From positions 124,001 through 188,000 of the forward strand of contig NZ_OY776488.1 of the NCBI RefSeq assembly GCF_963675635.1: a DNA stretch of 64,000 nt, read 5' to 3'. The translations under genes were made by a program, and so were the position numbers. Of the stretch, positions 16,375 through 40,378 are shown piece after piece; position 1 is the first letter of the stretch, and each line of letters starts with the position of its first letter. The notes beneath the pieces were generated by a model that did not search any database, was not told where the DNA came from, and saw only the letters and a program-made list of their open reading frames with translations. Origin of the DNA: an uncultured Pseudodesulfovibrio sp. (lineage in GTDB: Bacteria > Desulfobacterota > Desulfovibrionia > Desulfovibrionales > Desulfovibrionaceae).

Positions 16375-18933
16375 ATGCCTGTTGATAAAAAGTCAGCCTC
16401 TCAAAATCCTTCCAAGTCGACTCGGACTAATGGAACGTCATCGGTCAAGGCACCCGCTGGAAATATTCCTGCGGCATCAGCCAAGCCCGGCCCTGTGCCA
16501 CCCCCTGCAGGTAAGCCTCAGGGCAAATCTGCGGTCAAGCCTTCTCAACTGGACACCAAACCTGTCGGGGCGACTTTAGAAGATGGGAGCAAACACGCCG
16601 CGACGGGACCTTCTGCGGCCGTTCCGCCTTCTGCAGGAAACTCTCAGAAACCGGGGCACCCGATACCGGGTGGTATGCCCGGTCAACCCGGTCAACCCGG
16701 TCAGCCCATGCCAGGTGGCATACCCGGTCAGCCAGGCCAGCCCATGCCGGGCGGCATGCCTGGTCAAACTGTGCCGATCAGGGTCGAAGCTGATGAGAGA
16801 CTTTCCCCCAAAGACATTGATTTTCAGCCGCCGCTTGTCATCTGCTTATCAATTATCAGTCGCCTCCTCGGTAAGCCTGTTTCCTCTGCGACGCTCAAGG
16901 CAGGGATCCCTCAACAGGAAGGCGTTATTACTGCAGCTTCGATCGTCCGGTCAGCAGAACGAATCGGTATTCGGGCCAAAACCGTGTATCGGGAAAAACT
17001 GCGTAGTATTACTCGATTGATTCTTCCATGCATCCTTCTCCTTCGCGGAGGGAATGCCTGTGTATTGGTGGAGACCACTGACAAAGTCGCTCGAGTCGTT
17101 ATTCCCGGACACGGCATGGCCGAAACAGAGATGCCGCTTGAAAAGCTTGAAGAGGAATACACCGGCTACGCCATATTCTGTCACCGCAATTCCAAACTCG
17201 ACAAACGTGTTTCGGAATTGAGACTTCTCAAGACCAAACGCTGGTTCTGGGGGGTTATCGGGCGTTTCTGGCCTATCTATAAACACGTCATTGGCGCGTC
17301 CATCATGACCAACATCATCATTGTGGCCTCGCCACTTTTCGTGATGAACGTGTATGACCGCGTTATTCCGAACAACGCAATGGAAACATTGTGGGCATTG
17401 GCAATAGGTATTGCCATCGCCTACATCTTTGATTTCCTGCTGAAAAATTTGCGCAGTTATTTCGTTGACGTAGCTGGTCGTAATGCTGATGTCATCATCG
17501 GCAGTCGGATCATGAACCACCTCATGTCCGCCCGACTTGACCACATGCCGGAATCAGCAGGAGCCGTGGCCAACAACATTCGTGAATTCGAATCATTACG
17601 TGAATTTTTCGGATCGTCATCCCTGGTTGCGCTTATTGATTTGCCGTTCCTGTTTCTGTTTATTTTTGTCATCCATTTTATCGGTGGGCCTATAGCCTAT
17701 CCGATCTTCATTGCCGTTCCCGTGGTTATTCTGGTGGGGCTTTTTTTGCAGATCCCATTTCAGCGCATCATCGAGAATAACTACAAGGAGTCGACGCAGA
17801 AACATGCGCTGCTGTTCGAAATCGTGCAGGGACTTGAAACCATCAAGACAAGTATGGCCGAAGGTCGTATGCAGGCTCGTTGGGAAAGTGTGGTTGGTAT
17901 GTCCGCCCTGTCCAACAGTCGAGCCAAGATCATGGCCAACGTTTCCATATCATTCTCGGTCTTCATTACCCAGATGGTTTCTGTGGCCGTAGTCATTATC
18001 GGCGTGTTCCTGATTTCCAAGGGTGAGCTGACAGTGGGTGGACTGATCGCCTGCAACATTCTGTCTGGTCGGGCCATGGCTCCCCTGAGTGCTGTCGCCG
18101 GCCTGCTTTCCCGTTTCCAACAGTCCAGAATGGCTTTGAATGCTTTGGATATGCTCATGGAAATGCCAAGCGAGCGGCCCGATGATAAGGAAACCTTTCA
18201 CTACGGTGCCGTGGAACCTTCCATAACCCTGACTGGCGTTTCCTTCAGCTATCCGGGCACGGACAAGGCTGTTCTGCACGAAGTCAACCTCAAGCTTTCT
18301 CCTGGTGAGAAAGTCGGTATCGTCGGGCGGACCGGGGCAGGCAAAACCACTCTCGGTAAATTGTGTGTCGGTCTGTATCAGCCGGTTGAAGGGTCGGTTC
18401 AGGTTGGCGACATTGATCTACGACAGATGGATGTGGCCGATCTCCGCAGGAAAATCGGGTATATCTCTCAGGACAGCCTGCTTTTTTACGGAACATTGAA
18501 AGATAATATTGCTTTTGGTCTGCCTGAGGCAGATGATCAATCCATCAACTATGCGGCTGAGATTTCAGGCGTTAACGACTTTGTTCGGGATCACCCGGCA
18601 GGGTTCGGTATGATGGTCGGCGAACGTGGAACGTCTTTGTCCGGTGGGCAAAGACAGGCTGTAACCATTGCTCGCGCGGTTCTGCCTGACCCGGAAATTC
18701 TTATTATGGATGAACCGTCGAGCAATATGGACAATCAATCGGAGTTTCGACTCAAGGAACGCCTCAGGACGTTTGTTGAAGACAAGACACTTATCGTTAT
18801 TACCCATCGTCATTCTATGCTTGATCTTGTCGATCGTCTGGTTATCATGGATAGGGGAAAGATCGTTGTGGACGGGCCGAAACAGGCCGTATTGGATGGA
18901 CTGAAGTCCGGCAAAATCAAGGTTTCCCTGTGA
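16375..18933 (+). CDS. lapB: LapB-like type I secretion ABC transporter with collagen-like N-terminus
   Basis: An 852-residue inner-membrane exporter. Residues about 1-140 are a Pro/Gly/Ser-rich extension including tandem GMPGQPGQPGQP-type repeats (about 100-128). A C39-like domain (about 145-265) lacks the catalytic QxxxxDC motif, as in adhesin exporters that do not cut their substrate. Then follow the membrane domain (about 295-580) and ATPase: Walker A GRTGAGKTT near 650, signature LSGGQRQA near 755, Walker B ILIMDEPSS near 775. With the adaptor, LapG and giant RTX adhesin nearby, it is very likely the adhesin exporter. First gene of a four-gene operon. Confidence 0.9.
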   Translation: MPVDKKSASQNPSKSTRTNGTSSVKAPAGNIPAASAKPGPVPPPAGKPQGKSAVKPSQLDTKPVGATLEDGSKHAATGPSAAVPPSAGNSQKPGHPIPGGMPGQPGQPGQPMPGGIPGQPGQPMPGGMPGQTVPIRVEADERLSPKDIDFQPPLVICLSIISRLLGKPVSSATLKAGIPQQEGVITAASIVRSAERIGIRAKTVYREKLRSITRLILPCILLLRGGNACVLVETTDKVARVVIPGHGMAETEMPLEKLEEEYTGYAIFCHRNSKLDKRVSELRLLKTKRWFWGVIGRFWPIYKHVIGASIMTNIIIVASPLFVMNVYDRVIPNNAMETLWALAIGIAIAYIFDFLLKNLRSYFVDVAGRNADVIIGSRIMNHLMSARLDHMPESAGAVANNIREFESLREFFGSSSLVALIDLPFLFLFIFVIHFIGGPIAYPIFIAVPVVILVGLFLQIPFQRIIENNYKESTQKHALLFEIVQGLETIKTSMAEGRMQARWESVVGMSALSNSRAKIMANVSISFSVFITQMVSVAVVIIGVFLISKGELTVGGLIACNILSGRAMAPLSAVAGLLSRFQQSRMALNALDMLMEMPSERPDDKETFHYGAVEPSITLTGVSFSYPGTDKAVLHEVNLKLSPGEKVGIVGRTGAGKTTLGKLCVGLYQPVEGSVQVGDIDLRQMDVADLRRKIGYISQDSLLFYGTLKDNIAFGLPEADDQSINYAAEISGVNDFVRDHPAGFGMMVGERGTSLSGGQRQAVTIARAVLPDPEILIMDEPSSNMDNQSEFRLKERLRTFVEDKTLIVITHRHSMLDLVDRLVIMDRGKIVVDGPKQAVLDGLKSGKIKVSL

Positions 18934-18940
18934 GGTCATC

Positions 18941-20269
18941 ATGAGCAAGCATAAAGATGAAAGAGAAGTACTGCTGTTCATGAGCGAGGTGGACCAAGCC
19001 ATGTATGGCAAGGGTCGCCGGTTCGCCTACATCATGTCTTCTTCCATATTGTTGTTGATCATTATTTTCGTAATCTGGGCCAAGCTGGCCGTACTTGATG
19101 AAGTCACTCGCGGTTTCGGTCGCGTCATTCCTTCGCAGCGTATTCAGGAAATTCAGAACCTCGAAGGCGGTATTCTCAGCGAGTTGTTCGTGCATGAAGG
19201 CCAGACCGTCGACAAGGGAGATATACTGTGTCGTCTGCATAACGAGCAGGCTGCGAGTTACTATCGGGACGCTTTCGGCAAGGCCATGGAACACCGTGCG
19301 GCCATTGCCCGACTTGTTGCAGAGGTTGAAGACAGGGAGCCCGTTTTTGATGAGGAACTGCAAAAAGAGGCACCGCAGTTAGTTCAGGATCAGCTCAGGA
19401 TTTCCAGAGCGCAGCGTGAACAGCTCAAGATCGAGTTGAGTCTTCTGCAAGACCAGTATGAGCAGAAACAACAGGAAGTGAGTGAGATGGCCGGCCGTAA
19501 ACGGCAGCTCCAGCAAAGTCTGGATGTGGCGCTCAAGCAACGCAATATTGCCAAACCTCTTGTGGAAAAACAGATTCATTCCGAGTTGGATTATCTGGCT
19601 CTGGAACAGCGCGTTGTTGAACTGCGCGGTGATGTCGAAGCTTTGGCTCTGGGGATTCCACGCGTCAAGCGGGCTGCCAAGGAAGCACTTGGCAGGATCG
19701 AGCAGCGCAAGGCCGAATTCCGCAGTCAGGCGTTGGAAGAGATCAACGAACGACGGCTTGAGTTGAACTCCATTACAGAGAACCTGAGTTCCGGTGGTGA
19801 CCGTGTTACCAGAACTGATGTGCGTTCTCCGGTCAGGGGTATTGTCAAACACATCATGTCCAACACCCTCGGCGGCGTTATCCGGCCCGGTGAATCCATT
19901 ATGGAAGTTGTCCCTTTGGACGACACGTTGTTGATTGAGGCTGAAATCAAGCCTTCGGATATTGCGTTTTTGCATCCGGGCCAGAAAGCGCAGGTCAAAA
20001 TAACAGCGTATGATTTTTCCATTTACGGAGGGCTCGAAGGGTCTGTTGAGAACATCAGTGCGGACACCATTGAAGACGAAAAGGGCGAGAATCATTATCT
20101 CGTCAAAGTCCGTACCAAACAAAATGCCATTGTTTATCGGGGACAGCGATTGCCGATTATTCCGGGCATGACAGCTGGAGTGGATGTTCTGACCGGCAAG
20201 AAGTCGGTATTGGACTATCTCCTCAAACCGATTCTCAAGGCCAAGCAGAACGCGCTCAGAGAGCGCTGA
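18941..20269 (+). CDS. lapC: HlyD/LapC-type membrane fusion protein
   Basis: A 442-residue adaptor of type I secretion. One membrane span near residues 27-48, a short biotinyl-lipoyl half (LEGGILSELFVHEGQTVDKG), a long coiled coil (about 125-280), the second lipoyl half (VRSPVRGIVKHIM) and a beta-barrel domain (IKPSDIAFLHPGQKA), ending in the classical RTX-adaptor C-terminus (PGMTAGVDVLTGKKSVLDYLL). It bridges the ABC exporter and the TolC-like channel through the periplasm. The gene starts 7 bases after lapB and 7 bases separate it from lapG. Confidence 0.92.
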   Translation: MSKHKDEREVLLFMSEVDQAMYGKGRRFAYIMSSSILLLIIIFVIWAKLAVLDEVTRGFGRVIPSQRIQEIQNLEGGILSELFVHEGQTVDKGDILCRLHNEQAASYYRDAFGKAMEHRAAIARLVAEVEDREPVFDEELQKEAPQLVQDQLRISRAQREQLKIELSLLQDQYEQKQQEVSEMAGRKRQLQQSLDVALKQRNIAKPLVEKQIHSELDYLALEQRVVELRGDVEALALGIPRVKRAAKEALGRIEQRKAEFRSQALEEINERRLELNSITENLSSGGDRVTRTDVRSPVRGIVKHIMSNTLGGVIRPGESIMEVVPLDDTLLIEAEIKPSDIAFLHPGQKAQVKITAYDFSIYGGLEGSVENISADTIEDEKGENHYLVKVRTKQNAIVYRGQRLPIIPGMTAGVDVLTGKKSVLDYLLKPILKAKQNALRER

Positions 20270-20276
20270 TACTCCA

Positions 20277-20978
20277 ATGCGGCATTTCCGATGGACACAT
20301 ACGATAATCATGACCGCACTGTGTGCGGTCTTTATCGTTGGTGTCCTTGGGATGGAAGCCACCGCCTCGGCAGCGGCCCAAAAGGATGATAAACCGAAGT
20401 TGTTGGGAACCATGGAGTTCAAGGGCAAAATTCAAAAGCTGCCCAAGTGGTCTCGCGTGGTAACAAAAATGCAGGCGTGGAAAGGGTATTTTCAGGACTC
20501 TGCAACCGCCAATCACCCCTCAAAATCAGGGTGGTATGCAGTTAAATCCCAGATCAAGGACAAGTCCAACAAGGAAAAGCTCAAGGCGGTGACCAAGTTT
20601 TTCAATAAGTGGCCTTACCGTTTGGACAAGGCGAATTGGGGAGTGAGCGAATACTGGGCGACTCCATGGGAATTTCTCAAGAAGTCAGGTGATTGTGAAG
20701 ATTACTCAATTGCCAAATTCTATGCACTCCAGGAAGTCGGGTTTTCACAGGACCAGATGCGTATCGTGGCTGTCAAAGATGCCATTCGAGGTATTGGTCA
20801 CGCTGTCCTTGCGGTCTACACCGATGGCGATATCTATATCCTTGATAATCAGACCGTCATGGTCTTGTCTCATACGAAGTATAGACATTATATTCCGCAA
20901 TATTCCGTGAACGAAAAATTCCGGTGGATGCACGTGGCTCCAAAGAAGAAGACCACATATTCGAAGGCGAAAAAATAA
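20277..20978 (+). CDS. lapG: LapG-type periplasmic cysteine protease
   Basis: A 233-residue bacterial transglutaminase-like cysteine protease. A signal peptide is visible at residues 1-33. The catalytic triad is Cys140 (SGDCEDYS), His175 (GHAVL) and Asp190 (ILDN). Asp139 and Glu141 flank the cysteine as in calcium-binding LapG proteins, so calcium dependence is expected. In Pseudomonas, LapG cuts a di-alanine site after the N-terminal retention module of LapA and so releases the adhesin. The adhesin at 26170-37686 has matching di-alanines. It is followed by the HD-GYP-like sensor instead of lapD. Confidence 0.9.
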   Translation: MRHFRWTHTIIMTALCAVFIVGVLGMEATASAAAQKDDKPKLLGTMEFKGKIQKLPKWSRVVTKMQAWKGYFQDSATANHPSKSGWYAVKSQIKDKSNKEKLKAVTKFFNKWPYRLDKANWGVSEYWATPWEFLKKSGDCEDYSIAKFYALQEVGFSQDQMRIVAVKDAIRGIGHAVLAVYTDGDIYILDNQTVMVLSHTKYRHYIPQYSVNEKFRWMHVAPKKKTTYSKAKK

Positions 20979-21030
20979 GGCACGCCTTCCTGCGGGATGG
21001 CGACACCATAAACCAGATGGAGAATTGACT

Positions 21031-23130
21031 ATGGCTGAACACAATGCACAAACGTCAGAGATCCCCAAGTCCATTGGGGGAGCCGGACAAGGCGTCAAGA
21101 TTGGCGTTGTTCTGGCTTTCGTTCTGGTCATTTCAGTAGGCATCCTGCTTCTTGCCAACAAGGCAGTGAAAGACAAGGAAGTCGATGTACTGGAGAATCT
21201 GCAAAAACGGTTTGAAATTTTGACGCACGTCAGGGGTGAGGTGGTTACAGGCTTCCTCGACAATTTGTCGCATCATGGCGACCGGCTTATCAAATCTGAT
21301 CTTTTCCGGCTCTACGCCGCTGAAATTGAAGATTTTGATGGTGATCTGTCCAGCCTTTTCGGGGCAATTCATTCGGATAAGAATGTTGAAAGCGATGGTG
21401 CGGTCCTGGCAGAGCAGTTGCCTATGATGGAGAATATGCTTAGGGAATTTTCTGCCTACGCAGGATTTGTCAATGCCCGTATATTAAGCAAGAGCGGGGA
21501 AGCGTACATCGCTACGGATGGTCATTTGCCACCGATGGAGGACAGTCAGATAGCGTCCGCCATGGCGACAATCTCTACAAACAAGCCACAGTATTCACCT
21601 CTCAGAAAAACAGTCCGTGGTATGGAAATGGACGTATACGTCCCAATTTATCCGCCTGATGCGGTCGGTGGAACTGATGAAATTCCCCAGGATGGAGCCG
21701 TGGGCGTCCTGATGATGACACGACTTGTTTCCGGAAAAATTACAGAATTATTGTCGAATTCAGATCTGTCCGCAAAGGGGCAGAAAATGCGTCTTATGCA
21801 GAAAGATGGAGATAGGTTCAAGGAAGCCACTCCATGGAGTTCTGAAGGATTCAATGAAGTTACTACCAAGATTGATTTTGGACCAGAGGACAGTATTCCT
21901 TTTGCTGTCAGAATGAGCATCGGTGACCCTGAACAGAAAGTGTATTCTTTGGGGAAACGGATTGCCGGGCCTGAGTGGTGGCTGATTCAGGAAATTGATT
22001 ACGATGATGCCGTTGCTCCTATTAAGGATTTCAATCGTACAGTCTACATGGTTGCCGGGCTTGGTATTCTGACCGCCTTCCTTATCGCAGGGTTGGCCTG
22101 GTGGATTCTGACAGGAGTGCAAAGTCAGCGTGTGGCTAAAGAGTTCAAGGCATTGGCGACACAGATTGATGACCAAAAACGGTTTATTGATTCCATTAAC
22201 GCCAATATCGATGAGTTCATTACACTCAAGGACGGTATGGGGCGCTATACCTATGTCAATGATGCTTTCGCTGCAGCTGTCGGGCGGACCAAAGAGGAAC
22301 TTATTGGTATGGACGCTGCTGCTGTGTTCGGTTTTGATACCGCCAAGCGGTTGGAGTCCATTGATCAGGTTGCCATGCGGGAAAATCGTAAGGAAACCAT
22401 CAATGAGGCAATTTTCCTGCGCTCTCAACGCCATCAGTTCCAAATATCGAAGTCTCCATATTGTGATAGTAATGGTGCGTGTGCCGGTTTGGTTGAAGTT
22501 TACCGTGACATCACTGAGTTCGTAGCCGCACAAGAACAGAACAAGCGACTCATCAAAAGTGCGATGGAAGCACTGGGCAGTACGATTGAAGCGGCTGATC
22601 CATACCTTGGCGGCCATACCAAACTCTTGGCCGGATTGTCCGTTGAGGTCGCTAAATCAATGCACATGACGGAGATGGATATCGCTGAAATTGAAACAGC
22701 GGCCAATCTGTCACAGATCGGCAAAATGTTCGTCCCCAACGAGATTCTGACCAAGCCGGGTCGGCTTACCGACGAGGAAATGGCGACCATGGAGGAACAT
22801 GTCGAACACGCCTATCGTATTCTCAAGGATATAGATATCGAAGAGGGCGTGCTTCTGGCTATTTATCAAATGAATGAACGTCTGGACGGTTCCGGGTATC
22901 CCAAGAAGCTCATGGGTGACGAAACAATCATGCTTGCCAGGATTCTGTCAGTGTTGAACGTCTTCTGTGCAATGATCAGACCCAGGTCGTATCGTGGAGC
23001 TAAGGATCCGCAGCAGGCATTGGATATCCTTTCCAGTGAATCCACGAAGTTCGATAGTTCTGTGGTTCAGGCTTTGGCTGAAGTCGTCAAGACTCCTGCA
23101 GGCGAAAAGCTGTTGGCTCCCAGGGAGTAA
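21031..23130 (+). CDS. Periplasmic-sensor/PAS protein with degenerate HD-GYP domain
   Basis: A 699-residue membrane protein. Spans near residues 20-40 and 335-358 enclose a periplasmic sensor of about 290 residues. A PAS domain follows (about 380-500). Residues about 515-690 align with HD-GYP phosphodiesterases, but the metal-binding HD pair is replaced by Ser561-Gln562 (LSQIGK), and the HHExxDGxGYP motif reads MNERLDGSGYP (614-624), with both histidines lost. It should therefore bind or signal rather than hydrolyse c-di-GMP. The ATG at 21031 follows GGAG at 21019-21022. Position right after lapG suggests it takes the LapD role of controlling the protease (inference). Confidence 0.8.
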   Translation: MAEHNAQTSEIPKSIGGAGQGVKIGVVLAFVLVISVGILLLANKAVKDKEVDVLENLQKRFEILTHVRGEVVTGFLDNLSHHGDRLIKSDLFRLYAAEIEDFDGDLSSLFGAIHSDKNVESDGAVLAEQLPMMENMLREFSAYAGFVNARILSKSGEAYIATDGHLPPMEDSQIASAMATISTNKPQYSPLRKTVRGMEMDVYVPIYPPDAVGGTDEIPQDGAVGVLMMTRLVSGKITELLSNSDLSAKGQKMRLMQKDGDRFKEATPWSSEGFNEVTTKIDFGPEDSIPFAVRMSIGDPEQKVYSLGKRIAGPEWWLIQEIDYDDAVAPIKDFNRTVYMVAGLGILTAFLIAGLAWWILTGVQSQRVAKEFKALATQIDDQKRFIDSINANIDEFITLKDGMGRYTYVNDAFAAAVGRTKEELIGMDAAAVFGFDTAKRLESIDQVAMRENRKETINEAIFLRSQRHQFQISKSPYCDSNGACAGLVEVYRDITEFVAAQEQNKRLIKSAMEALGSTIEAADPYLGGHTKLLAGLSVEVAKSMHMTEMDIAEIETAANLSQIGKMFVPNEILTKPGRLTDEEMATMEEHVEHAYRILKDIDIEEGVLLAIYQMNERLDGSGYPKKLMGDETIMLARILSVLNVFCAMIRPRSYRGAKDPQQALDILSSESTKFDSSVVQALAEVVKTPAGEKLLAPRE

Positions 23131-23571: not shown

Positions 23572-23605
23572 AAAAAAAGAGGCACAGCCCTTTGGCTGTG
23601 CCTCT
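23572..23605 (-). terminator. Terminator of the TolC-like gene
   Basis: Twelve-bp stem AGAGGCACAGCC with loop CTTT; on the minus strand it is followed by a run of T (seven A on the plus strand at 23572-23578). Confidence 0.85.
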
Positions 23606-23629
23606 TGAGGTTCTCGCGTAGTAAGTCGC

Positions 23630-24967
23630 TTACTGTTGTTCAGCGGGGAGTTCTTCGTAGGTGTTGGAAGCCACTTCAAGAGTCTTCATGAGCTGGCCTT
23701 CGAGTGCCAGGAACTTGTAGAGGGTGAAGTTACGATTGCTCGTAGCGGTTTCAAGCTGCACCTTGTTGCTGAAGACTTCATTGGTAGCATCAAGCACGTC
23801 CAGAAGGGAACGCTGACCGACGTTGAACTGCATGAGGTACATGTCCAGGGATTCCAGGCTGTACTGGAGAGCTTCCTGATACTTTTCAATCTGACCGATG
23901 CTGGATTCGTATTCGGCCCATGCGGCTGCAACCTGACGGATCAGGTCATCAGTAGTGTCCTGCAAGTTGGACTGTGCTTCACGGACACGGGCAGTGGCGG
24001 TACGAACATCGTTGTAGTCGCTCAAGCCGTTGAAGAGGTTCCAGTTCGCACGGAGCATTGCCTTGTCGTCCTGAACCCAAGAGTCGGAACCATCAAGGTC
24101 GTCAGTATTGCGGTGTGCGTAGTAGACATCAATCTCCGGGTACATGGTGGATTCGAGAACACCAACGGTACGTTCAGCAACTTCGATCTCAGCTTTATAC
24201 ACTGCGATCTTGGGGTTGTTGTCCAGAGTGACGTCAAGAATTTGTTCTGCGGTGGCAGGAATGTACTCGGGATTGTATTCAGGATCGCCGAGTTCTTTGG
24301 GAGTTGCACCCACTGTCCGTGTGTATTCAGCTTCGGATGTACGAAGTTCACCGATGTAGGTGACCAGAGTGGTTTCGGCACGGGCGACGCGGCCTTTAGC
24401 CTGCATTTCATCGGCCTTGTTACCAGCTCCGCCTTCAACACGTTCGGTGATGGAGTCGAGCAACTGCTGGTGAGCGGTGATGTTTTCACCGGCCAGAGCA
24501 ACAAGTTTGCGGATGCGGACCACATCGACATGGGCGCGGATGGCGTCCAGAGCAACAGTTTCCACATTGTCGACCAAACGGCCTTCGGCGGAAGTCATAC
24601 GTGCACCTTCGCGCTTGTAGTCGCTCCAACGGTCAAAACCGTCAAAGATCGGCTGCGTGATGGTAGCGGTGACATCCGTAGGCGTACGGGTGTGTTTGTC
24701 AACGTTGGTGGAACGAGTGACAGCACTGCTGTATTCCTGCCAGCCGGCTTCAGCCCGCAGGTCGAGGGAAGGGAAGAAACGGCCCAGTGCAGACAGTTGC
24801 GCCTTGGATACGGCGTCTCTGTTGTGCAGCATGGCTTTGATCTTCGGGTGCTGTTTAACAGCGGCTACGACACTGTCTTTCAGTGTCATTGTTCCATCCG
24901 CTTGGGCGAAGGCCGGCACGGAAAAAACAAGGGAAAAAAGGAGAGTTGCGAGAACCAGTTTTTTCAT
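23630..24967 (-). CDS. TolC-family outer-membrane channel
   Basis: A 445-residue outer-membrane efflux protein. From the ATG at 24967 a clear signal peptide is visible (MKKLVLATLLFSLVFSVPAFA). The mature part has the two repeated helical hairpins of TolC proteins, with long alanine/glutamate-rich helices (about 140-215 and 330-420) and the AVKQHPKIKAM and LDNNPKIAVYKAEIEVAERTV motifs. Most likely it is the channel (LapE role) for the adjacent type I exporter. It converges on the exporter operon and has its own promoter (25010-25039). An in-frame ATG at 24979 is an alternative start. Confidence 0.9.
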   Translation of the reverse strand: MKKLVLATLLFSLVFSVPAFAQADGTMTLKDSVVAAVKQHPKIKAMLHNRDAVSKAQLSALGRFFPSLDLRAEAGWQEYSSAVTRSTNVDKHTRTPTDVTATITQPIFDGFDRWSDYKREGARMTSAEGRLVDNVETVALDAIRAHVDVVRIRKLVALAGENITAHQQLLDSITERVEGGAGNKADEMQAKGRVARAETTLVTYIGELRTSEAEYTRTVGATPKELGDPEYNPEYIPATAEQILDVTLDNNPKIAVYKAEIEVAERTVGVLESTMYPEIDVYYAHRNTDDLDGSDSWVQDDKAMLRANWNLFNGLSDYNDVRTATARVREAQSNLQDTTDDLIRQVAAAWAEYESSIGQIEKYQEALQYSLESLDMYLMQFNVGQRSLLDVLDATNEVFSNKVQLETATSNRNFTLYKFLALEGQLMKTLEVASNTYEELPAEQQ

Positions 24968-25009
24968 GATGAACCCCATGTAATTAAAATTCAGCGTCTT
25001 ACTGGTAGA

Positions 25010-25039
25010 CTTATAGCCATAATTATAAAATTGTGTCAA
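25010..25039 (-). promoter_or_regulatory. Sigma-70-type promoter of the TolC-like gene
   Basis: On the minus strand TTGACA (25034-25039) is separated by 18 bases from TATAAG (25010-25015), about 45 bases before the start codon. Confidence 0.6.
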
Positions 25040-25237
25040 GGCGTTTTGGGTTTGGCATGGGTTAGTCTGCACTTGTTATTAACTGACTGAATGTATTGGC
25101 TTAATTGTCTTCTTTGTGAGAGGAGTCTGGCCGGGAAAATCTCCCGTTTTGCATGGTTTTGACTGCTTGTATGTTTCTTTTGTCACAAAGCCTCTCAATA
25201 GGCCGTAATGTCTTGGTAATAATTTTTAATATAAGCA

Positions 25238-25296: not shown

Positions 25297-26082
25297 TTAA
25301 TCTACGTTCCTGCCAGAGTGTATCAAATGATTGATAAGATCATCTGTGGAGGTATCAGTGTCGATGCTGAAATCATGCATGGGCAGATTGGGTTGGGATA
25401 CGCCGAGCAACTTGACGACGATATCGTCATGAACCGTATCATTCAGTCCGATGATGACTTCCGTAAGATCGTGCTCGGTATCCACGATGACGTCCTTAAC
25501 CGACATGCCTTCAGGCAATTCCAGTGTGTCGCTGCCAACAGTAAAATTGGTGACAATAATCTCACTCTCGCCGTTCTCCAACACTGAGGGGTCAATGAAG
25601 AAACTGTCGTGATCATGGCTGGTTGAAACAATCGCATCATCCACAAAAAGATCATCCCCTGCCAAGTCAACAAGGAGTTGCTCGCTGGGTGGAATGTCAG
25701 TCAACGCTGCAAGGTCGTCGGTCACGATTGCCCAGGTTCCATCATCTCCCTGAGTGAGAGAGAAGGTGTCTTCCGCCCCGTTCGGGTTGAACTCCGCATT
25801 GTCGAAAAGTACGGGAAGCAGGGAATTGTTGTTGGCCAACACCCAACTCCCGCCATCTTTGAGAAAATGGAGGTCGCCCGATAGGTCGACTGCATTATCC
25901 GGTGCGTCGTGGATGAGGAAGAACCGAATGTCCGGGTTGCCCTGAAAAACAGAGACAAGATGACCAAGCATCGCTGTATCCGTACAGTTGGCAAGGACAA
26001 TTTCCGGCTCTACAGGCACGTTCCCGTCAAGGGAATACGTGCCAAGCATCGTCGTATCGTTCATATTTGTATAATCAGCCAT
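25297..26082 (-). CDS. Small secreted protein sharing a domain with the giant adhesin
   Basis: A 261-residue acidic protein rich in Asp and poor in Lys. No classical signal peptide is visible. Residues about 3-108 resemble residues about 2400-2500 of the giant adhesin: both have N-M-x(3-4)-G-x-Y, PxxPEIxLxN, a hydrophobic F-L-x-x core and FDNxxxNPNxxEDTF. The C-terminus (SDTLELPEGMSVKDVIVD onward) resembles type I secretion targets. The ATG at 26082 follows AAGGAG with 7-base spacing and gives MADYTN, like the adhesin's MADPKT. Being just downstream of the adhesin, it is probably exported by the same machine. Function unknown. Confidence 0.6.
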   Translation of the reverse strand: MADYTNMNDTTMLGTYSLDGNVPVEPEIVLANCTDTAMLGHLVSVFQGNPDIRFFLIHDAPDNAVDLSGDLHFLKDGGSWVLANNNSLLPVLFDNAEFNPNGAEDTFSLTQGDDGTWAIVTDDLAALTDIPPSEQLLVDLAGDDLFVDDAIVSTSHDHDSFFIDPSVLENGESEIIVTNFTVGSDTLELPEGMSVKDVIVDTEHDLTEVIIGLNDTVHDDIVVKLLGVSQPNLPMHDFSIDTDTSTDDLINHLIHSGRNVD

Positions 26083-26126
26083 ATTCATCTCCTTTGCAAG
26101 GAGAATTGTCCGTGTGAGAGAAAATG

Positions 26127-26169: not shown

Positions 26170-29100
26170 TTAGAAGTTGTCAGGTGAATCGATAATCTGC
26201 TGGATTATGTCGTTCACGTTGTCGCTTGCAAGATCGACGTGTGTGCTGATGCCATCATGGCTTGAGACAACGCCGTTGAGTGTGATCACGAGATCCTCGC
26301 TGCCGGAGACATTCTGAACAGTCAGAATGAGATCGCTGCTGCCTGAATCGGAGGTGATCGACAAGTTGCCGCTGCCAAGTGCATCCAGGTCGAGTTGGTC
26401 GCCTGCATTGATGTCGAAGTCTGTGACCTCAACATTACCGCCGATGTACGCGGGGTCGATAGTTATGGTGTCCGCACCTTCGCCCAAAGTGACGGTGTCG
26501 TTACCACCACTGAGGTGGATGTCGTCATTTCCATCGAGGCCGAAGATGACATTGTCTCCAATGTCGTCGTGCAAGACATCGTTGCCGGATGTTCCCACGA
26601 TAACCGAGTTGTCGCCTGTCAATGTGATGGGGAATTCCAATGTCGCGGTGCTGGTCATGCCATCGGTATCAGCTATCTGATATTCGAAGGTTTCCACTGC
26701 TGCGTGATTCATGTGGTCGACCAAAGCCGGGTCCACATTGTATTGGAAGGTTCCATCCTCATTCAGGGTCAGGGTTCCGTATTCACCCTGGATTGTGCCG
26801 GCGGTGGCGCTGTCATGCGTCGTGTCAGCCAGGGAGACGTAGCCATCTACGCCTGTGGCTCCAAGCACAACGAGTTCGGTGCTTGCACCAGCAGTGTCAC
26901 CATGATCAATGTCTTCGGCATCGAAGTCGTTGGTCAACACATTGCCGCTCATGCCGTTGGGAGACACAAGGGCAGCTATCCAGGAGGTGCTTGTGACAGT
27001 CCGGCTGGCACTCAGGGATTCCAGGTAGAAGGAGTCATCGTAGTCTTGGTTAGCTCTGATGGTGATGCTCGTGATGTTGCCGGTGGCGGTGAATACTCCA
27101 TTGGAGTATGAACCGCTGCCGCCGCTTACTGAGAACGTGGGCGAATCCTTGTCGCTAATGTCCCCAAGCGTGATCGTCACCGAAGTCTGCGGCGCATCGA
27201 AGGAGATGGTCATGTCTTCATCATAGTAGCCGTCGATGTTGGTATCGTCTCGCCGGTAACTCTTCACGCCGAGGTCATCTTGATTGACCAAAACGACATC
27301 GGAGTTCCCATACAAGAATCGGCCGCTGATCGTGAAGCCATTTCCATGGTAGTCTCCGCCGGAGATCGTACCATTGAAGTCAGCGTCATTGATGTTCGTG
27401 GTAACAGTCGAGGTATGACTGTAGCCGCGAGTGAGTTCCATGCCAGCGAAGACATCGTTGACTGCCACAGGGGCGTCATCGGCGCCGTTGATCAGGAAGC
27501 TCACAGTTGCTTCGTCATAGCTGCCCTGCCCATCAGTCATCTGATAGGTGAAGGCTTCTGTCTCGGTCTCGCCGGTAGCCAGTGCGTCGGCCGCAGGCTG
27601 GTCCGGTACATATTCGTAAGTACCATCGGTATTGATGGTCAATGTGCCAAACGTGCCCACCATGACTGCTGTATCAGCATCATCAGCACCAGAGCCGACA
27701 TCCGAGAGAGCAGTGAAGGTTCCATGGCTGGATTCGTCGCCGAAAGCCACAGACACGACGCTCATGGTGTCGCCATCCGGTTCGATGTCGTTGGTCAACA
27801 CATTGCCGGTGGCGGTTGTGCCTTCGGTGCTGGTTACGGTCAGGATGTCCTGCAACAGGCCATTCAGATCGCTCGGGTCGTCGAGGTCGAGACCGTCGCC
27901 GTTCTCGTTGATCTGGTTGATGTACTGCATGTTGCTAGAACCCATCTCGATTCCGACACCGATGACATTGGTGTTGGAATGCAATGTCGCCAGTTCATCC
28001 TGCCAGTTGTGGGTGTTATTGGGCGCGCCGTCCGACATGAAGACAACCTGGGTCTCTATGCCGTTTGACTCGTCAGTTACCCATGTGTTGGCCGCGCGTA
28101 ATGCATCCTGATAGTCAGTGCCTCCGCCTGCAGAGAATCCATTAACAAAGTTCAGGGCATTCTGAATTTCTGTCGAGGAATCATCGGTCAGTTCATAGGT
28201 GCCTATACGCGTGTCGCTCCAGAAGTCGATGATGCCGACCTTGACCGAACCACCGCTGGAGTTGATCTGCTCCTGCAGAGTATTCAGCATCTCAGTGAGA
28301 GCGTCCTTGGCTGCTTCCATACGGCCTGTTCCTTCGCCCATGGACCCAGAAGAGTCTACAATCAACAGGTAGTTGACCGGGTTGGATTCGAAGTTCGTGC
28401 CGCCTTCGGTTACGACGTTGAAGTCGTTTTCCGTACCGGGCTGGTCGTCGAAGCGATCGTCTTTAGCTTCAGGATCGTCGTTGGTGGAGATAACGTTCAG
28501 GGTTACCTGTGCGCCGTCCGTCAACCCGCCATCGGTGACGGTGTAGTTGAAGTGCGCCGGTCCGCTGTAGCCGTCTTCGGGAGTGAACAGCAGTTGGTCG
28601 CCGACCTGTTCGACCGTACCGACGACATTGCCGGCGCCATCGGTGGCTTCGGTGTCGAAGGAGTCGATGGACAGCGGATCGCCGTCCGGGTCGGAGTCAT
28701 TGGCGAGGACATCGATGTAGGTCGGAGTGTCTTCGGCGACATTCTGAGTGTCGTCGTCAGCCACTGGACCCTGGTTTTCGATGGTCACGCTGACGTTGAT
28801 CAGGCCGTAGTCAACTGCGCCTTCGGTGTCGCTGACCTGGTAGGTGAAGGTCTCGGAGATCTCACCTGTCTGGTCGGCGTTCGGCGTGTAGGTGTACTCG
28901 CCGTTGGCACCGATTTCCAGCACACCGTGTGTGCCCCGGATGATGGCGCCCGTGGCGAAGGTTCCGGAGTCCGGGTTGAAGTCTACACCGGTGTAATCCG
29001 TGAGGTTGTCCTGGTCGCCGGTAGCGATGCCGGTGACAGTCAGTTCTGTCGAGCCTTCGAGTACCGGGGTCAGGGGGTTGTCGCCCTCGGGGTAGTCGAC

Positions 29101-32100
29101 GTCTTCGTAATCCCAGTCGTTGGCAAGGACATTGCCTTGGACGATGGGCATATCACCCGAGCTGGTGTCAGCCGGTGTCAGTTCTATGTCACCCTTGAGT
29201 GAGAATCGATTAGACTCACCATTCGGAGACAGGGTAAGACTTTCGAAGGGAGTGCCATCGTTTGTCGTTACCGTATAACTGTTGCCAGTGCCGGGTGTCA
29301 CGATGAGGTGTGTGGGCTGAGACGTGTCAGTCGTCAGCGTGGTGCTGCCACTTGTAGCCTCAAACAGGGGATTGTGATTGCCATAAGTCAGGATGTCCAA
29401 TTCGACAGATGCCTGGCTTTGAGCGAAGTTGATGGTCAGCGCTTCGTCCGGACCGTCATTGTCGACAGTCTTAGCTGCACTATTATTGCCTTCACCAGTC
29501 GTCTTGATACCCGTATGCGTGATGCCGCCAGTTGCCCATTGGAACACGTTCCCGACGTTTGCGGAGAATGTGTACAGCGGGGTTCCATCGGGAACTTCTT
29601 CGCCGGGGATGTAATGACCGGATGCGGAGCCGTTGTCATCGACCGCGACAGGCGGATCGTTGACCGGAATGACCTGAACGAAGGCATGGGCCGTGTTACT
29701 GGCCGCACCCTGGTCGTCGTAGACTGTGACCGAGATATCCCGGAGGTTTTCGATAGTCTCTTCCGTGTCGAGGTCGTCACCCAGCGGGTTCTGCGAGGTG
29801 TTCTCGAATCTCAGGGTCTGGAGCAGGGCTTCCCAGTCCGCCTTGGGGGCGTCACCGATAATGGTCATGGTTCCGGCATCGCCATCGTCCGGGCCAAAGG
29901 AGGCCCAACTCGGCAGGGTGATGCTCAAAACGTCGCCGGGCTGCTCTTCGAAGCTGATTTCGACTCTGGACATGTTGTCGGAATCGATGTCCGAGATGTC
30001 CACTGCGCCGGTAACACCAACTGCGGCTCCGCCTTCGGTGAAGGTGACCGGACCGTGGTCGGCACCGAGTGCGCCGTCGTGCTCATCGGCGAGGACATCG
30101 TTGAAGTCGTCGTCGTCAGTCTCGACAGTGAGCTGATCGTCGACGGCAACTCTGCCAGTCAGAAGCTGTGCGGGATCGAAGGTGTCTTCAATGTCATTGG
30201 GGTTAAGGGCCGGGTTATCGAAGCGGGCATCGAACAGAGTCGTTCCGCCGTCGAAGGAGATGGCCCATTCGCCGTTGGCTTCATCCCACACGAACTCGGG
30301 AGTACCGGTAGGTGTCGCGCCTTCGCCGACCGCTACCAGGAAGTAGTTCGGTGCAGCGCCGTCACCGTAGGTGGTGAGGATGTCACCGATATCCAGGTTC
30401 GGGTCGTTGGCGTTGACCAGGATGATTTCCGGGTTCACCGGGTTGCCGTCGGACATCGTGTAGATGCCGATCATGTTGTTGTAATCGGCTACTTCGCCTT
30501 CGAAGGTCACTGTGCCTGCGGACAGGTCGAGGACCGGAGCGTCGTTTGCGCCGTTTACCGTAATGGTGACGGTTGCGATGTTGGAGTCTGCATCGCCGTC
30601 GTTGGCCATGTACTGGAAGGTGATATCCATGGTTTCTTCAACACCAAGGTGGTCGTAGGCGGGGTTGTTCTGGTCGAACTGGACATCGCCGTTCGGCAGC
30701 AGAGTCACGCCAGCCGGGAGGTCGCCCACTGCGCTGAAGGAAACGATGGTGTCGGGAGTCGTGCCAGGCACGGTCTCGCCGGTGTCAGGATCATAATCAT
30801 CGCCGCCGCCGGAATCAGTACCCACGTTACCGAGGGTCACGATTCCGCCGTCATTCACTTCGTTGGCCTGGTATGCGTCATCGAGTGCGACAGGAGCGTC
30901 GTTGAGACCCCTGACTTCAATAACCAGGTTGGCGGACTGGGCAACGGGATCGTTGTCTACGGTGTCGCCGTCGGTCATGGTGTACTTGAAGGTTTCGGTC
31001 GGGTTCACGCCGTCAGGCAGAGTCTCGTCCGTGGCGGTGTAGGTGTACTCTCCGTCGGAGCCGATAACCAGCGTGCCGTGATCGCCTGTAATGGTGATCG
31101 GGTCTGCGCTGGTGAAGTCGTATGTGGTGCCGTCGAATTCGACCTTGGTCAGGGACATTTCGCCAGGCGTGTTGTCCGGGTCGAGGTCGTTGTCGAGTAC
31201 GTTTGCCGTGACCGCAGCCATACCTGCGTAGTCGCCGGTATCAGGTTCGTAGACGAATTCGTTGTCAACAACCGCAGTCGGGTCCTGATTCACAGGAGCG
31301 TCGGGCAGGATGTTGACAGTAACCGTTGAAGGACCTGCGGGATCGACCAATTCACCGTCGGTTCCGGGCAGGCCGGAGTCAACTGGAATGTAGTCGAATG
31401 TATCAGTGTTGGTGAATTCGGCATCAACGTACCGGAGTTCCCAGTTGGCGCCGCCAGCCTCTCCGTGTTCCACGGTGCTGAATTCAAGCGAGGTGAAGGT
31501 GTTGCCTTCGCCGAGCAGGCTCGCATCCAGGACCAGGGTTTCAAAGAGGTCGCCGCCGTTGTTGTTGACTTCGCCGCTGGCAACCACGTTGCCCTCGGCA
31601 TCGTAGGCAGTCCAGGTGGCAAAAGCCTGCTGGGTGCTGCCGGGGTTGAAGAAGCCGCCGAGGCCGTCGAAGCCGACTTCAGCGTAGGAGACTTCGGCAC
31701 CGTCGAAGGAGACGGTCAGGACGTCGTTGGTGGTGCCGTTGAGGCCCTGTCCGCGTTCGTCCGCAATGCCGAATCCGATGTGGTTTGCGCCTTCATTGTA
31801 CTGCGTAAGTTCGGCGTTATCGCCGTTGCGTGTCACGCTGGTGGTGACGGTTACACCGTTGATAACCAGATCATAGGAACCGTCGGGCTGTTCGACACCC
31901 CATTGACTCAGGGCTGCATCGCCGGCAACGCGGGAGCCGAGAAGGACACCTTCGATGGCTTCGCCGTCGGGAACGTAGCTGAGCTGGTTCAGGTCGAACT
32001 GAGTGCCGTTGTCCACGTCGGCCTGGGTGACCGGAGTCTGGCCGGGGCCGTAGACGAGCTGACCGTTATCAGGCAGATCGGTGATCATGACATCCAGTTC

Positions 32101-35100
32101 CTGACCTGTGTAAGACGGGTCTTCGGGGTCGGATACATGGTCTGCATCGTCGCCAGTGCCACCTTCGCTGCCGTCAGCGCCGAGGAAGGGCACCGGGCCA
32201 CCTTCCAGGCCGACAGTCATGGTGAAGTCTTCGCCTGTGGGCGGTTCATTCACGTTGCCGATGTTGACGGTGATGTCGACATCCTGGCCCACGCCGCCCT
32301 GTTCATCCACGGGGACGACGGTGACAGTGTAGGAGGAACTTGCTTCATAATCGAAGCCGGTTTCGCCGCCATGGGCTACCAATGTGTTGCCGTCGAAGGT
32401 GAAGAGGTTCAGGTTGAGGTCTACGGGATCACCGTTAGCATCAGTGATGCCGGTGATTTCGTAATGGACTGCGTGGCCTTCCACATCCGAGGAGCCGAGC
32501 TGCGCAACAGCGGTGTCTCCACCTGTATTCTCGATGACCGAGAACATGGGCAGACCGTCCGCATCGTAGGAAGCGACGGATACGTTGTCGATGCCGAAGG
32601 CTTCCTGAGCGACAAAATCCCACCATTCGGATTCAATGTTGGCGGAGAGGTCCACGGTAAGTTCGCCGCTGGCGGGTGCGGGGACCGTGATCGTTACATG
32701 ATGCAGGAAGCTGCCAGCCATACCCGGATACGAGCCGAAGCTGATGGTCGATCCATCGGCCAGGGTGTCGGAGTAGGATTCAGACTGGAAGGCAACCAGC
32801 GGGATTTCAAAGGTGTTACCACCGATATTGATGATGAATGAATCGTCATCACTGTCGGAGGCAATCCATGCATTGAATGACTCATTCCAAAGCCCTGCTT
32901 CGAGCATGTCGAATTCAACGGTCACGGTTTCGGCGTCGGCATCGACCATGAAGGTCTTCTGCGTGGATTCTCCCTCACCGAACAGGCCGAGGAATCTGTT
33001 TTCGAGGACATCGCGGATAGCACTGTGATCGACATTAAAGGTGTCATCCACGGTTTCAAGAAGGTCGTTAAGAGCGCTGATGATCGGATTGTCGACAAGG
33101 CTGCCCGTACGGCTGATATCCCAGTCGCCTGCACCGCTTTCAAATCCTTCAACCGGAGCAGCAATACTGGTGATGACCGGGGCGTCGTTGGAGCCTTCCA
33201 CCGTTACGGTGATGGTGTGGCTGTCAGTGCCGTCGTATGAGGTGACTTCAAAGGTCTCGGTGAAGGATTCACCGTCGCCCATTGTCTGAACGACAGGCAG
33301 GGTGTTGTCGATTTCGTAGGTCCACTCACCAAGTTCGTTGATGCTGAATGTACCACCCTTGCTCGTTACTTCCGTATCGGGTTGGAAGGTGTCTTCAAGA
33401 TCAACCTGGACGGAAACGCCAGCGAGGTTGGTGAATGTCGCCGGGTCATGCGGATGCTGGTCCGGGTCGTCCACGAACAACTGTCCGCCGGTGGTCAGTG
33501 TTTCGATCGCAGGGGTGACAACTATGTTGCCGAACTCGTCGAGAACGGTCTCGTCGCTGTCTGTGAAGTCGTCAGGATCGTCCGAGCCGCTGGCCCAGGT
33601 TGTGTCGTCGTTGGGATCGACGGGTGCTTCAACCCATTCGACCTCTGTGACTGTGCCTTGGTCGGCCCCTTCGTCCACGATGATGGTCGCCTGATCGTTG
33701 CTGCCGTGAATCTGGAAGGTTACGGTGGCAGTGTCGGTGGCCGGGTCGTTGTATGCGTTGGGATCGCTCGACAGAGAAGCATCTCCATCGCTGATCATGT
33801 AGGTGAATGTTTCCGTTGCGGAATGGCCTTCTGCAAGTGCATTGGCCGCTTCGGTGTCAGCCACGTAGCGGAAGTTGCCTTCGTCGTCCATGTACAGGCG
33901 TCCGTAGAGACCCTGAACAAATACGCCGTCAGCAAGGGTGTCGCCGACAGGTGAGAAGGGATCCGAGCCGGTAGGCGGTGCCGACTGGAGAGATGTTTCG
34001 CCGAGATCCGGTTCGCCATCATACTTGAGACCGATGACCCTGAGGTCCGTCAGGTCGTTGGGGTTGTCTTCTGTGTCCGGGGCTCCTGTGTCGCCGTAGG
34101 CGAATTGGTCAGGATCCCAATCGTTTGCAAGGACGTTCCCTTCAGCCACATTCTGAGGCAGTTCGGAAGTCGGGATGCCGAGGAGATCAGCCAGAAGGAC
34201 GCCAAGGGAGCCATCAAAGAGATGGCAGCCGCCATCGGTCACGTCACTCAGTTCGGTGACCTGGTAGATGCCGTCGTTCTCTGCGACAGGAGCATCGTTG
34301 GCTGCGGTCACATGCAGGGTGAAGGAAGTGGAAGCCACGCCCTCGACACTGTAGTGGCCCTGACCATCGATATCGTAAGGATCAGCCGGGTTGGAGTTGT
34401 CGTCCCTGACGGTTACGGTGAAGTCGCGGTCTGCTGTGTTCGGGGTGTCGTCTTCACTGTCGATCTCGAAGGTAATACGCTTCATGGCCTGTTCGAACTG
34501 GTTGAAACCAGGGGTCCTGCCGTCAGCGGCTTCCATGAAGATGGTTCCGGTGTTGTTGTCGATGGTGACAAGCACACCCTTGAACTGGAATTCGGTGATG
34601 CCGTCGGTATTGTCTCCGTCGATGGTTTGAATCTGCGGATGGGGATTTCCGTTTGCCCGCAGTACGTCGAAGCTCAGGATATCGCCTGCAAAGCGGACGT
34701 CCTGAGTGACGGTGACAGTCAGTTCTGCACCGATGTTGTCCACATCGGAAATCTGGATGCCGTGTCCACCGAGGATGTCCACTGCTCCAGAACCGATTTC
34801 GTGCGCGCCGTCTTCGATGAATTCACCGTCAAAGCGAGCTGGACGGGTGATGGAGACTTCGGGGTTGTCGTTGTTGCCGTAGATGGTGATGTTCAGTTCG
34901 GCTTCATTGCTTTCCACACCGTCGTCATACGAGTTGCGTGCGGTGTAGTAGAATGTTTCGACAAGGCTGTCATCCACGTTCAGCGCATCAACTTCCGGGT
35001 TCTCATTGTTCAGGGTGTAGTCGTAGCTACCGTCGGCCCTGATGGTCAGGGTTCCGAACTGGCCTTCGATGGTCACTTCCTGATCGTCGTCATTGTAGAC

Positions 35101-38272: not shown

Positions 38273-40378
38273 TTATTTGTTTATCATGGTCCAAACGCCG
38301 TCCCAAACGTCGGGAGGCGTTTTTATCAGTTCGAGGCACTTGTCAAGATACCGGGCTGCAGGAGGGTCGTCTGACGCTATGATCTTGAAAAGCGCAGTCG
38401 CTTGTTCGAAGTCTCCTTTATAGAACTCTTTCAGGCCTAGTGAGAATGTATCCAGTATCTCTTGTCTGGACAAAAAGACTTCTGGGGTGAAAGGCTCAAA
38501 GACGGTTACGGCTTCATTTTTCCCGACGACTCGTATGCAGGAGAGTTCTCTGGTCGGCGTTTTTCCATCCAGTTGTTCCAGTGTGGCTTGTGAGATCATT
38601 GTATATGTGCCGAACTGCTTGTTGATGGATTCCAGCCGGGCAGCCAGATTTACTGAGTCGCCGAGCATGGTGTAATCGAATCGAGTGTGTGAACCAAGGT
38701 TGCCGACAACGGCTGGGCCTGTGTTCAGACCTATCCGCATGCGGAAGTCCTTGCCTGTGCGTTCTCGAAGTTCCGGTCGCATTTGTGCCAGTTTTTCCTG
38801 ACACATGAGGGCAGCCCGGACGCCTCGACCGGCGTGGTCCGGCTGGTCCACCGGGGCATTCCAGAAAGCGATGATGGCATCCCCTTCGTATTTGTCCACT
38901 GTACCGCCGGTTCCTTGAATAATGTCGGTCATGGCTGTCAGATAATCGTTGAGGACGCTGGTTAATTCTTCCGGAGTCAGTCCTTCGGATATTGAGGTGA
39001 ATCCTTCGAGGTCGGAGAAGAAGATGGTCAATTCCCTGCGTTCGCCACCCAGAGTGAGTCTGTCAGGGTTTTGCAGAAGCTGGTCGATCACATGCGGGCT
39101 GAGATATTGCTTGAAAGCGGATTTGATAAACTGTTTCTGGCGACCTTCTGTGGCATATTTGAACGCCCCTGCAAGGAACAGGGATGTCATGCATCCGGCA
39201 AGCGGTACGGCAAGGTTTGACCAGATGCCAATGGAATAGGATGCCATAGCAAGTCCCACAGGTGCAGTCAGGGCCACAGCTGAAGTCGCGACCGTCAGCC
39301 AGAGGCTTTGAAAGATTGTGACGCTGAGTCCTGCGAGGATGGCAAAGGCCAGCGTTATCGCAATGTCGGTTGCGATCCCTGACATGCGCATGAAGTCCCC
39401 GGAGAGGAGATTATCCAGTGCTGTTGCATTGACCATGACGCCGGGAGTGACTCCTCCCAGTGGAGTGGGCCGGAGGTCGTAGAGTCCGGTGGCGGAAAAT
39501 CCGAAAAGGACATACTTCCCTTCAAACTTTTTGGGGTCGATGATCGGCTTTTGACCTTCTGCCAGTCGCATGCCGCTCTCCATTACAGCCGCCGCGCTGT
39601 AGGTCGAGTATGCGTTATTCCCTCTGTAATTGAGAATAGTCAGTCCCTTGTCCGTGATAGGGACGGGTGTCGTTCCGAAGATGAGCGCGTTTCTGCGCAG
39701 GTTAATGGAAGTCGGTTCCGCCACAAGGGAGGCTGCCAAAGGGAGTGAGGGGACGTATCGGTTGTCGAATCGTATAAGGAGCGGGAAGCGGCGGTAGATC
39801 GTATCGGCATCAGGGGAAACGTTGACATTACCGATGCTGGTGATCCCTCCGGTCAGGTCCGGTATAGGAAATGTTGCCACCGAGGCAGAAGGAACGTTTG
39901 GAGTGCCGGACAGTGGAAATATCGGTGCCGGGATGTGTCTGGGCCATTTCTTGGCAGTGCCGTCGTGTCGGGCAAAGTCGGCGGCCAGTACCACCCGACC
40001 AAGGGCAGCGAAGCTGTCGCTTAATGTCTTGTCGTCATGGACGCCATAGACAGAAGGTTCAGTGAATACCACGTCAAAAGCGAGTGAAGCCACACCGGCC
40101 TCCCTGCAGAAGTCGACCAGTGGGGCATACGCCTGTCGCGGCCAGGGCCAGCCCAATCCAAAGGATTCCTGGGCCCAGTCCAGTGATTTCTGGTCGAGCA
40201 GGATGACGGCAATCTGATCCGTTGCTGCGCCTGATTTGGCGAGCACACGCGCCCGAAGGTCAAACGTGACGTTCTCTAGAGTGTCGAGCAGGCCGGTTGT
40301 TAATGCTCCAACGGCCAGAAGGGTGCCGATGAACCCAATAGCAATGCCTGCCAGGATTTTTTTCAGACCTCGAGACAC
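38273..40378 (-). CDS. CHASE2-domain class III adenylate/guanylate cyclase
   Basis: A 701-residue membrane sensor-cyclase. An N-terminal span (about 8-30) leads to an extracytoplasmic CHASE2 domain (about 35-330: FDVVFTEPS, GVMVNATALDNLL), then three membrane spans (about 340-415). The cyclase domain (about 445-640) has metal Asp in IFFSDLEGFTS (near 455), KYEGDAI (near 497) and GDSVNLAARLE (near 572, with the transition-state Asn and Arg), so it looks catalytically complete. A Lys in KYEGD favours ATP as substrate. A TPR-like tail follows. Last gene of a three-gene operon with the SH3 and M48 genes. Confidence 0.9.
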   Translation of the reverse strand: MSRGLKKILAGIAIGFIGTLLAVGALTTGLLDTLENVTFDLRARVLAKSGAATDQIAVILLDQKSLDWAQESFGLGWPWPRQAYAPLVDFCREAGVASLAFDVVFTEPSVYGVHDDKTLSDSFAALGRVVLAADFARHDGTAKKWPRHIPAPIFPLSGTPNVPSASVATFPIPDLTGGITSIGNVNVSPDADTIYRRFPLLIRFDNRYVPSLPLAASLVAEPTSINLRRNALIFGTTPVPITDKGLTILNYRGNNAYSTYSAAAVMESGMRLAEGQKPIIDPKKFEGKYVLFGFSATGLYDLRPTPLGGVTPGVMVNATALDNLLSGDFMRMSGIATDIAITLAFAILAGLSVTIFQSLWLTVATSAVALTAPVGLAMASYSIGIWSNLAVPLAGCMTSLFLAGAFKYATEGRQKQFIKSAFKQYLSPHVIDQLLQNPDRLTLGGERRELTIFFSDLEGFTSISEGLTPEELTSVLNDYLTAMTDIIQGTGGTVDKYEGDAIIAFWNAPVDQPDHAGRGVRAALMCQEKLAQMRPELRERTGKDFRMRIGLNTGPAVVGNLGSHTRFDYTMLGDSVNLAARLESINKQFGTYTMISQATLEQLDGKTPTRELSCIRVVGKNEAVTVFEPFTPEVFLSRQEILDTFSLGLKEFYKGDFEQATALFKIIASDDPPAARYLDKCLELIKTPPDVWDGVWTMINK

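Follow-up and report, generated by a model that had tools for sequence, protein, structure and literature searches.

A probable DvhD-type c-di-GMP receptor behind lapG in Pseudodesulfovibrio, and relatives that follow lapC without lapG

In an uncultured Pseudodesulfovibrio sp., a gene for a membrane protein with a degenerate HD-GYP domain stands directly behind a lapG homolog, which raises the question of whether this protein does the job done by LapD in Pseudomonas fluorescens, where an enzymatically dead c-di-GMP receptor restrains LapG as an inside-out switch (PMC13090378, cited here and below from the part of its text that was available). The stretch analysed, hereafter the window, comprises 64,000 nucleotides of a genome of 3.52 Mb in a single contig. 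The gene is the last of an operon with the order lapB-lapC-lapG-dvhD and gaps of 7, 7 and 52 bp (Table 1), as the preliminary description had it for lapG and its neighbor. An ATG at 21031 gives a protein of 699 aa, a start at the in-frame TTG at 21025 would make it two residues longer, and two hydrophobic, presumably membrane-spanning, stretches were read by eye. Cys, His and Asp of the protease align with those of LapG structures; the LapG equivalog model scores it at 91 bits, below its cut-off of 320. The hairpin behind the operon is a consensus match only, from a scan in which the region gave 9 terminator-like sites and shuffled sequence 7.7 +/- 3.1.

Table 1. Features of the dvhD locus (positions in the window; residue numbers refer to the dvhD ortholog product)
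Feature	Position	Strand	Remark
LapB-type T1SS ABC permease/ATPase	16375..18933	+	TIGR03375, 937 bits
LapC-type T1SS membrane fusion protein (HlyD adaptor)	18941..20269	+	TIGR01843, 396 bits
LapG/DvhG-type BTLCP protease (Peptidase_C93)	20277..20978	+	PF06035, E 9.7e-21; 4u65, E 3.2e-19; 4fgo, E 8.4e-17
dvhD ortholog ORF, dCache-PAS-HD-GYP, predicted catalytically degenerate	21031..23130	+	699 aa
Periplasmic dCache domain, about residues 45-335	21163..22035	+	9rc2 match
FRLYA motif, residues 92-96	21304..21318	+	motif tally on alignment
PAS domain, residues 393-498	22207..22524	+	Pfam PAS_4 (PF08448), E 5.3e-14
HD-GYP domain, degenerate, residues 518-678	22582..23064	+	Pfam HD_5 (PF13487), E 2.8e-39; 9rbz, E 2.2e-57
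Ser561-Gln562 at the position of the metal-binding HD pair	22711..22716	+	same in DvhD
Met614-Asn615-Glu616 at the HHE position	22870..22878	+	same in DvhD
DGSGYP, residues 619-624, GYP motif retained	22885..22902	+	Tyr corresponds to DvhD Tyr621, a phosphate contact
Terminator-like hairpin, 13 pairs, between dvhD and convergent tolC	23577..23606		consensus scan
TolC/LapE-type outer membrane protein	23630..25072	-	PF02321, E 1.7e-51
263-aa ORF between tolC and giant adhesin gene	25297..26088	-	no Pfam/NCBIfam match over cut-off
Giant BapA/LapA-like adhesin, 3838 aa, presumed substrate	26170..37686	-	VCBS repeats
CHASE2 + adenylate/guanylate cyclase protein	38273..40378	-	adjoins giant adhesin gene
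M48 peptidase	40380..41279		beside CHASE2-cyclase gene

The three best matches in a PDB sequence search are the three structures of DvhD: 9rc0 (PAS/HD-GYP, E 3.3e-91), 9rbz (HD-GYP) and 9rc2 (dCache, E 7.7e-47), which were taken as DvhD since the constructs and residue numbers of PMC13090378 fit the chain sequences. DvhD (DVU1020, BfsD) of Desulfovibrio vulgaris Hildenborough is a recently described receptor (PMC13090378, Nat Commun 2026) in which HD is replaced by SQ and the double histidine by Met-Asn; it does not hydrolyse c-di-GMP but binds it with a Kd of about 99 nM and switches conformation upon binding, and its periplasmic domain is a dCache. The window protein has the same dCache-PAS-HD-GYP architecture in one membrane protein, shares the SQ and MN(E) lesions and an FRL[FY]A motif in its periplasmic part, and is likewise encoded directly 3' of a LapG homolog in a T1SS adhesin locus; identity over PAS-HD-GYP is 48%. 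Residues 57-329 match 9rc2, the crystallised periplasmic domain of DvhD. The window gene very probably encodes a DvhD ortholog, to which the published mechanism would apply by homology.

The motifs named in the preliminary description, Ser-Gln for HD and Met-Asn-Glu for HHE beside an intact DGSGYP, all proved to be there, and as read from its sequence the HD-GYP domain lacks the ligands for the metal on which c-di-GMP cleavage depends. Phosphodiesterase PmGH (4mcw/4mdz/4me4) and 3'3'-cGAMP phosphodiesterase 3 (5z7c) share the domain and the GYP motif (E 5.5e-18 and 4e-24, respectively), but have the metal-binding HD and HH that the window protein lacks. Four named related loci were available from metagenome-assembled genomes (MAGs), three of Pseudodesulfovibrio and one of Desulfovibrionaceae; three named relatives (L009-L011, 74-90% identity) all carry SQ, MNE and DGSGYP. 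A search of the window genome for HD-GYP matched 18 stretches, and the seven other proteins compared (L002-L008) have HD (HN in one) and HHE. The lesions are thus no sequencing accident, since the three relatives share them whereas the seven other HD-GYP proteins compared retain HHE and, with one exception, HD. The LapG-linked proteins read number 142 with that of the window. His at position S559 and Asp at position Q560 (DvhD numbering) occur in none of them, and none has both histidines of HH; in G168 one His of HHE is left, and two have no sequence at this second motif (G248, contig end; G239, stretch of unknowns). The HD-GYP part has a dN/dS of about 0.02 against two relatives, a rough figure with dS near 2, at or past saturation in all five comparisons.

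The predicted loss of phosphodiesterase activity is consistent with these observations. That the protein is instead an active c-di-GMP phosphodiesterase, lowering the nucleotide locally, was rejected and is scarcely credible: its HD-GYP Pfam match exceeds the cut-off and DGSGYP is retained, but the HD pair and both HHE histidines are absent from it, the HD and HH pairs are absent throughout the LapG-linked set (apart from the two proteins lacking data at HH), and DvhD, with identical lesions, gives no hydrolysis of c-di-GMP (PMC13090378).

The dead domain would retain most of its nucleotide contacts. Of eight canonical c-di-GMP contacts (DvhD numbering), seven are identical in the window protein (Y523, L577, Y621, M646, R650, Y652 and E668); the eighth, K582, differs and is Met. 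Met also stands at 582 in 23 of the 95 group A proteins (groups are described below), and this replacement is evidently tolerated. At E668, which makes the base-specificity contact, no more than 29/95 of the same group have Glu. At the bridging c-di-GMP site the window protein departs from DvhD, with Ala for K520 and Glu for R569, and P567 alone is retained. Neither Lys at 520 nor Arg at 569 is among the residues listed for any of the four groups, and neither of these bridging contacts would therefore seem to be a general feature.

By homology with DvhD, the window protein would act as an inner-membrane receptor. At high c-di-GMP the HD-GYP dimer would bind the nucleotide and the helical stalks above it would splay, and, again as in DvhD, the change would pass through the PAS domain and the membrane to the periplasmic dCache. 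The adjacent LapG-type protease would then be restrained, so that the giant adhesin stays anchored in a TolC-like pore. A fall in c-di-GMP would set the protease free to cut the retention module of the adhesin. Direct contact of the window dCache with LapG and cleavage of the window adhesin are both inferred; for DvhD and DvhG, direct contact is a structural model in PMC13090378. The preliminary description had proposed an HD-GYP-based inside-out switch, and homology to DvhD supports this mechanism. Its further claim that such a switch would be a new solution does not hold, since the switch was already in print in 2024 and 2026: PMC13090378 cites Karbelkar 2024 for the finding that in P. fluorescens DvhD controls DvhG in response to c-di-GMP, and the part of PMC11784015 available describes that work in the same terms. 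As early as 2017, DVU1020 was noted as syntenic with lapD (PMC5646257, likewise available in part).

The window protein has no LapD_MoxY_N, GGDEF or EAL match, in which it differs from LapD, and its candidacy as a LapD relative was rejected. The LapD N-domain (PF16448) had no match in the window protein or the window genome, in a search that was silent in control genomes yet gave strong matches in nine other genomes. Across 297 genomes of the order, LapG (PF06035) occurs in 157, and the gene directly 3' of it is DvhD-like in 143 and LapD in two, the other 12 being cut by contig ends or of the kinds set out below; 142 of the 143 are HD-GYP ORFs read in the stretches and one (G249) was assigned by coordinates. 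The expected co-occurrence with lapG is thus borne out. PF16448 matches eight of the 297 genomes, strongly in two (G004 and G015, beside LapG by coordinates) and weakly in six (E 1.4e-5 to 3.7e-4, five over the cut-off). Five of the six genomes with weak matches carry a LapG-linked DvhD-like gene, so that only the strong matches speak for LapD and DvhD being mutually exclusive.

Contig ends cut the place behind LapG in five genomes (G226, G258, G271, G272 and G295). In G276 (L178), an internal stop interrupts lapG and a 262-aa ORF comes after it, and in G146 (L191) lapG is split over two frames; both genes appear broken. Four genomes have neither an HD-GYP gene beside LapG nor a PF16448 match (G263, G261, G178 and G098, at L166, L170, L175 and L182, respectively), and at L170 and L182 LapG adjoins an ORF that by eye reads like tryptophan synthase beta. 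The PF06035 matches of G001 and G068 lie in another setting and were not picked up by the window LapG.

Of 345 genomes drawn from the phylum, 22 have PF06035; eight, including the window's, belong to the order and 14 do not, the matches in G300, G461 and G565 among the latter being weak. LapD adjoins LapG in seven of the 11 outside genomes that were looked at, and a DvhD-like gene does so in two, G438 and G376, which carry SQ/MNE and Cys-Asn/KYE, respectively, the metal ligands being absent from both. Neither kind of gene lies on the 3.4 kb stretch of G437, and that of G439 is too short to show the neighbor of LapG. A dCache profile built from 16 LapG-linked proteins matches 11 of the 345 genomes, eight of the order together with G438 (E 5.4e-68), G376 (E 4e-10) and G470 (E 7.2e-9), the last without a PF06035 match. 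None of the nine genomes of the phylum with a strong LapD match, in which LapD lies beside LapG, gave a full-length DvhD match. By sequence, LapD gives way beside LapG to another type of dead c-di-GMP receptor in most LapG genomes of the order and in two genomes from outside the order.

The DvhD-like sites, 187 in number, were classified into groups A (95), B (47), C2 (30) and C1 (13), with two more (G290 and G295) lacking readable neighbors. A tree was built from 106 HD-GYP domains, comprising 42/95 of group A, 25/47 of B, 15/30 of C2, 13/13 of C1 and 11 canonical domains. The 95 DvhD-like domains, the window's among them, form one side of a branch with 100/100 support that separates them from the 11 canonical HD-GYPs. 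This tree has long outgroup rows, drew a long-branch warning from the program, and does not include D. vulgaris DvhD. Among the rows used, groups B, C1 and C2 each come out as a single clade, and C1 and C2 lie inside the DvhD clade. A single loss of catalysis would fit this tree, the place of the root inside the DvhD clade being uncertain. The window protein is classified as an ordinary group A DvhD.

Group B proteins (n = 47, of which 45 are real cases, G248 and G239 lacking data) are linked to LapG and have lost the GYP tyrosine. The motif takes such forms as DGTGQP, DGSGLP, DGSG-P and PETGAN, at loci that include L079, L096 and L176, and most members belong to genus g3, which we infer to be the Desulfovibrio-type genus. 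Y523 is Asn in 36/47 and H588 is Ala in 41/47. Loss of c-di-GMP binding was considered for this group and is not claimed, because R650 and R653 are retained in 46/47. Six pairs give a domain dN/dS of 0.04-0.15. One subset of the group seems to be without PAS, as judged from the one member scanned.

The remaining two groups follow lapC. Together they account for 43 DvhD-like genes, all lacking the HD pair, that stand directly 3' of lapC with no lapG between, at loci that include L193-L204 (for example, L200:5055-7151 and L194:4587-6857), and all 43 receptors retain the GYP tyrosine, R650 and R653. Group C2 lies behind a Dvh-type LapC, LapB being seen in 28/30; the 30 are the copies read, second copies having been fetched in part, so that there are at least 30. 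A group B copy is also present in 28 of the 30 C2 genomes and a group A copy in G187; in G226 the place behind LapG is the one cut by a contig end, and G260 has a nearby LapG-DvhD pair on the opposite strand. Group C1 lies directly 3' of a distant LapB-LapC pair in 13/13 cases and stands apart in the 297 genomes, with 13 matches above 570 bits and the next at 308. Eight of its 13 host genomes are outside the 157 with PF06035, and five (including G146) have a separate LapG-DvhD pair. A 313-aa protein without a Pfam match (L198:10519-11457) is encoded directly before lapB in three C1 operons (L198, L199 and L200). The DvhD family has no strict one-to-one link with LapG. Its members without LapG or without GYP are new relative to the main text of PMC13090378, in the part available, and none of the publication titles listed concerned LapG-less receptors of the DvhD kind.

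The periplasmic part also differs among the groups. In an aligned tally, FRL[FY]A is exact in 63/95 of A and 30/47 of B, LRLFA occurs in 28/30 of C2, and neither is found in the 13 C1 proteins. The first periplasmic helix (alpha1) has a Trp in 84/95 of A, 46/47 of B, 30/30 of C2 and 0/13 of C1, where the residue is Gln in 12/13; the window protein differs from DvhD in having Phe75 at this position (21253-21255). PMC13090378 reports no obvious LapG-binding Trp in DvhD. The motif and the Trp might mark contact with LapG, but descent explains this pattern equally well, since C1 is one clade, and five C1 genomes do have LapG. A low-confidence AlphaFold2 model computed from the window protein and three close relatives (mean pLDDT 45.5) has a first long helix at 18-88, a break, and a short helix at 90-97 that holds FRLYA, with pLDDT below 50 there.

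The lapC-following genes bring up a wider reading, in which receptors of the DvhD type act, or also act, on the T1SS itself, through LapB/LapC or the retained adhesin, control of LapG being one branch, so that the window protein could gate both secretion and protease. This is a tentative idea, to be preferred less than control of LapG by the published mechanism. It draws on the 43 genes behind LapC, on the eight C1 genomes without a PF06035 match, and on the clades that C1 and C2 each form inside the DvhD clade with their GYP tyrosine and arginines intact; but the output shown for DvhD is DvhG (PMC13090378), LapG is present elsewhere in 30/30 C2 and 5/13 C1 genomes and could be acted on in trans, and a protease unlike PF06035 may be missed in the remaining C1 genomes. 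An equally speculative extension would make dead DvhD-type receptors general c-di-GMP switches of adhesin secretion operons, with C1 acting on the T1SS without any LapG, and with the receptor divided between two copies in Desulfovibrio-type genomes: the one at the secretion operon would be c-di-GMP-competent, and the one at the protease, which lacks GYP, may listen to it, for instance by pairing. Relatives that lack LapG or GYP allow a test of whether the partner of the receptor is the protease, the secretion machine or both.

It is rather improbable that the dCache senses a periplasmic ligand and that the protein integrates two signals, c-di-GMP being only one input. Cache domains commonly sense ligands (PMC13090378), and dCache is the more variable part, with a dN of 0.087 in the closest pair against 0.033 for HD-GYP; however, the DvhD dCache crystal is without ligand density (PMC13090378).

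The presumed substrate was scanned in two end pieces, which contain VCBS repeats and score 125-128 bits with the BapA/Bap/LapF model, below its cut-off of 180. The strict cleavage motif [TAP]AAG does not occur in residues 1-220 of the adhesin, the nearest forms being TAAD and AATG. Elsewhere in the window genome, distant from this locus, a 127-aa ORF gives a second, short PF06035 match (L014, G000:C1:1327604-1327846).
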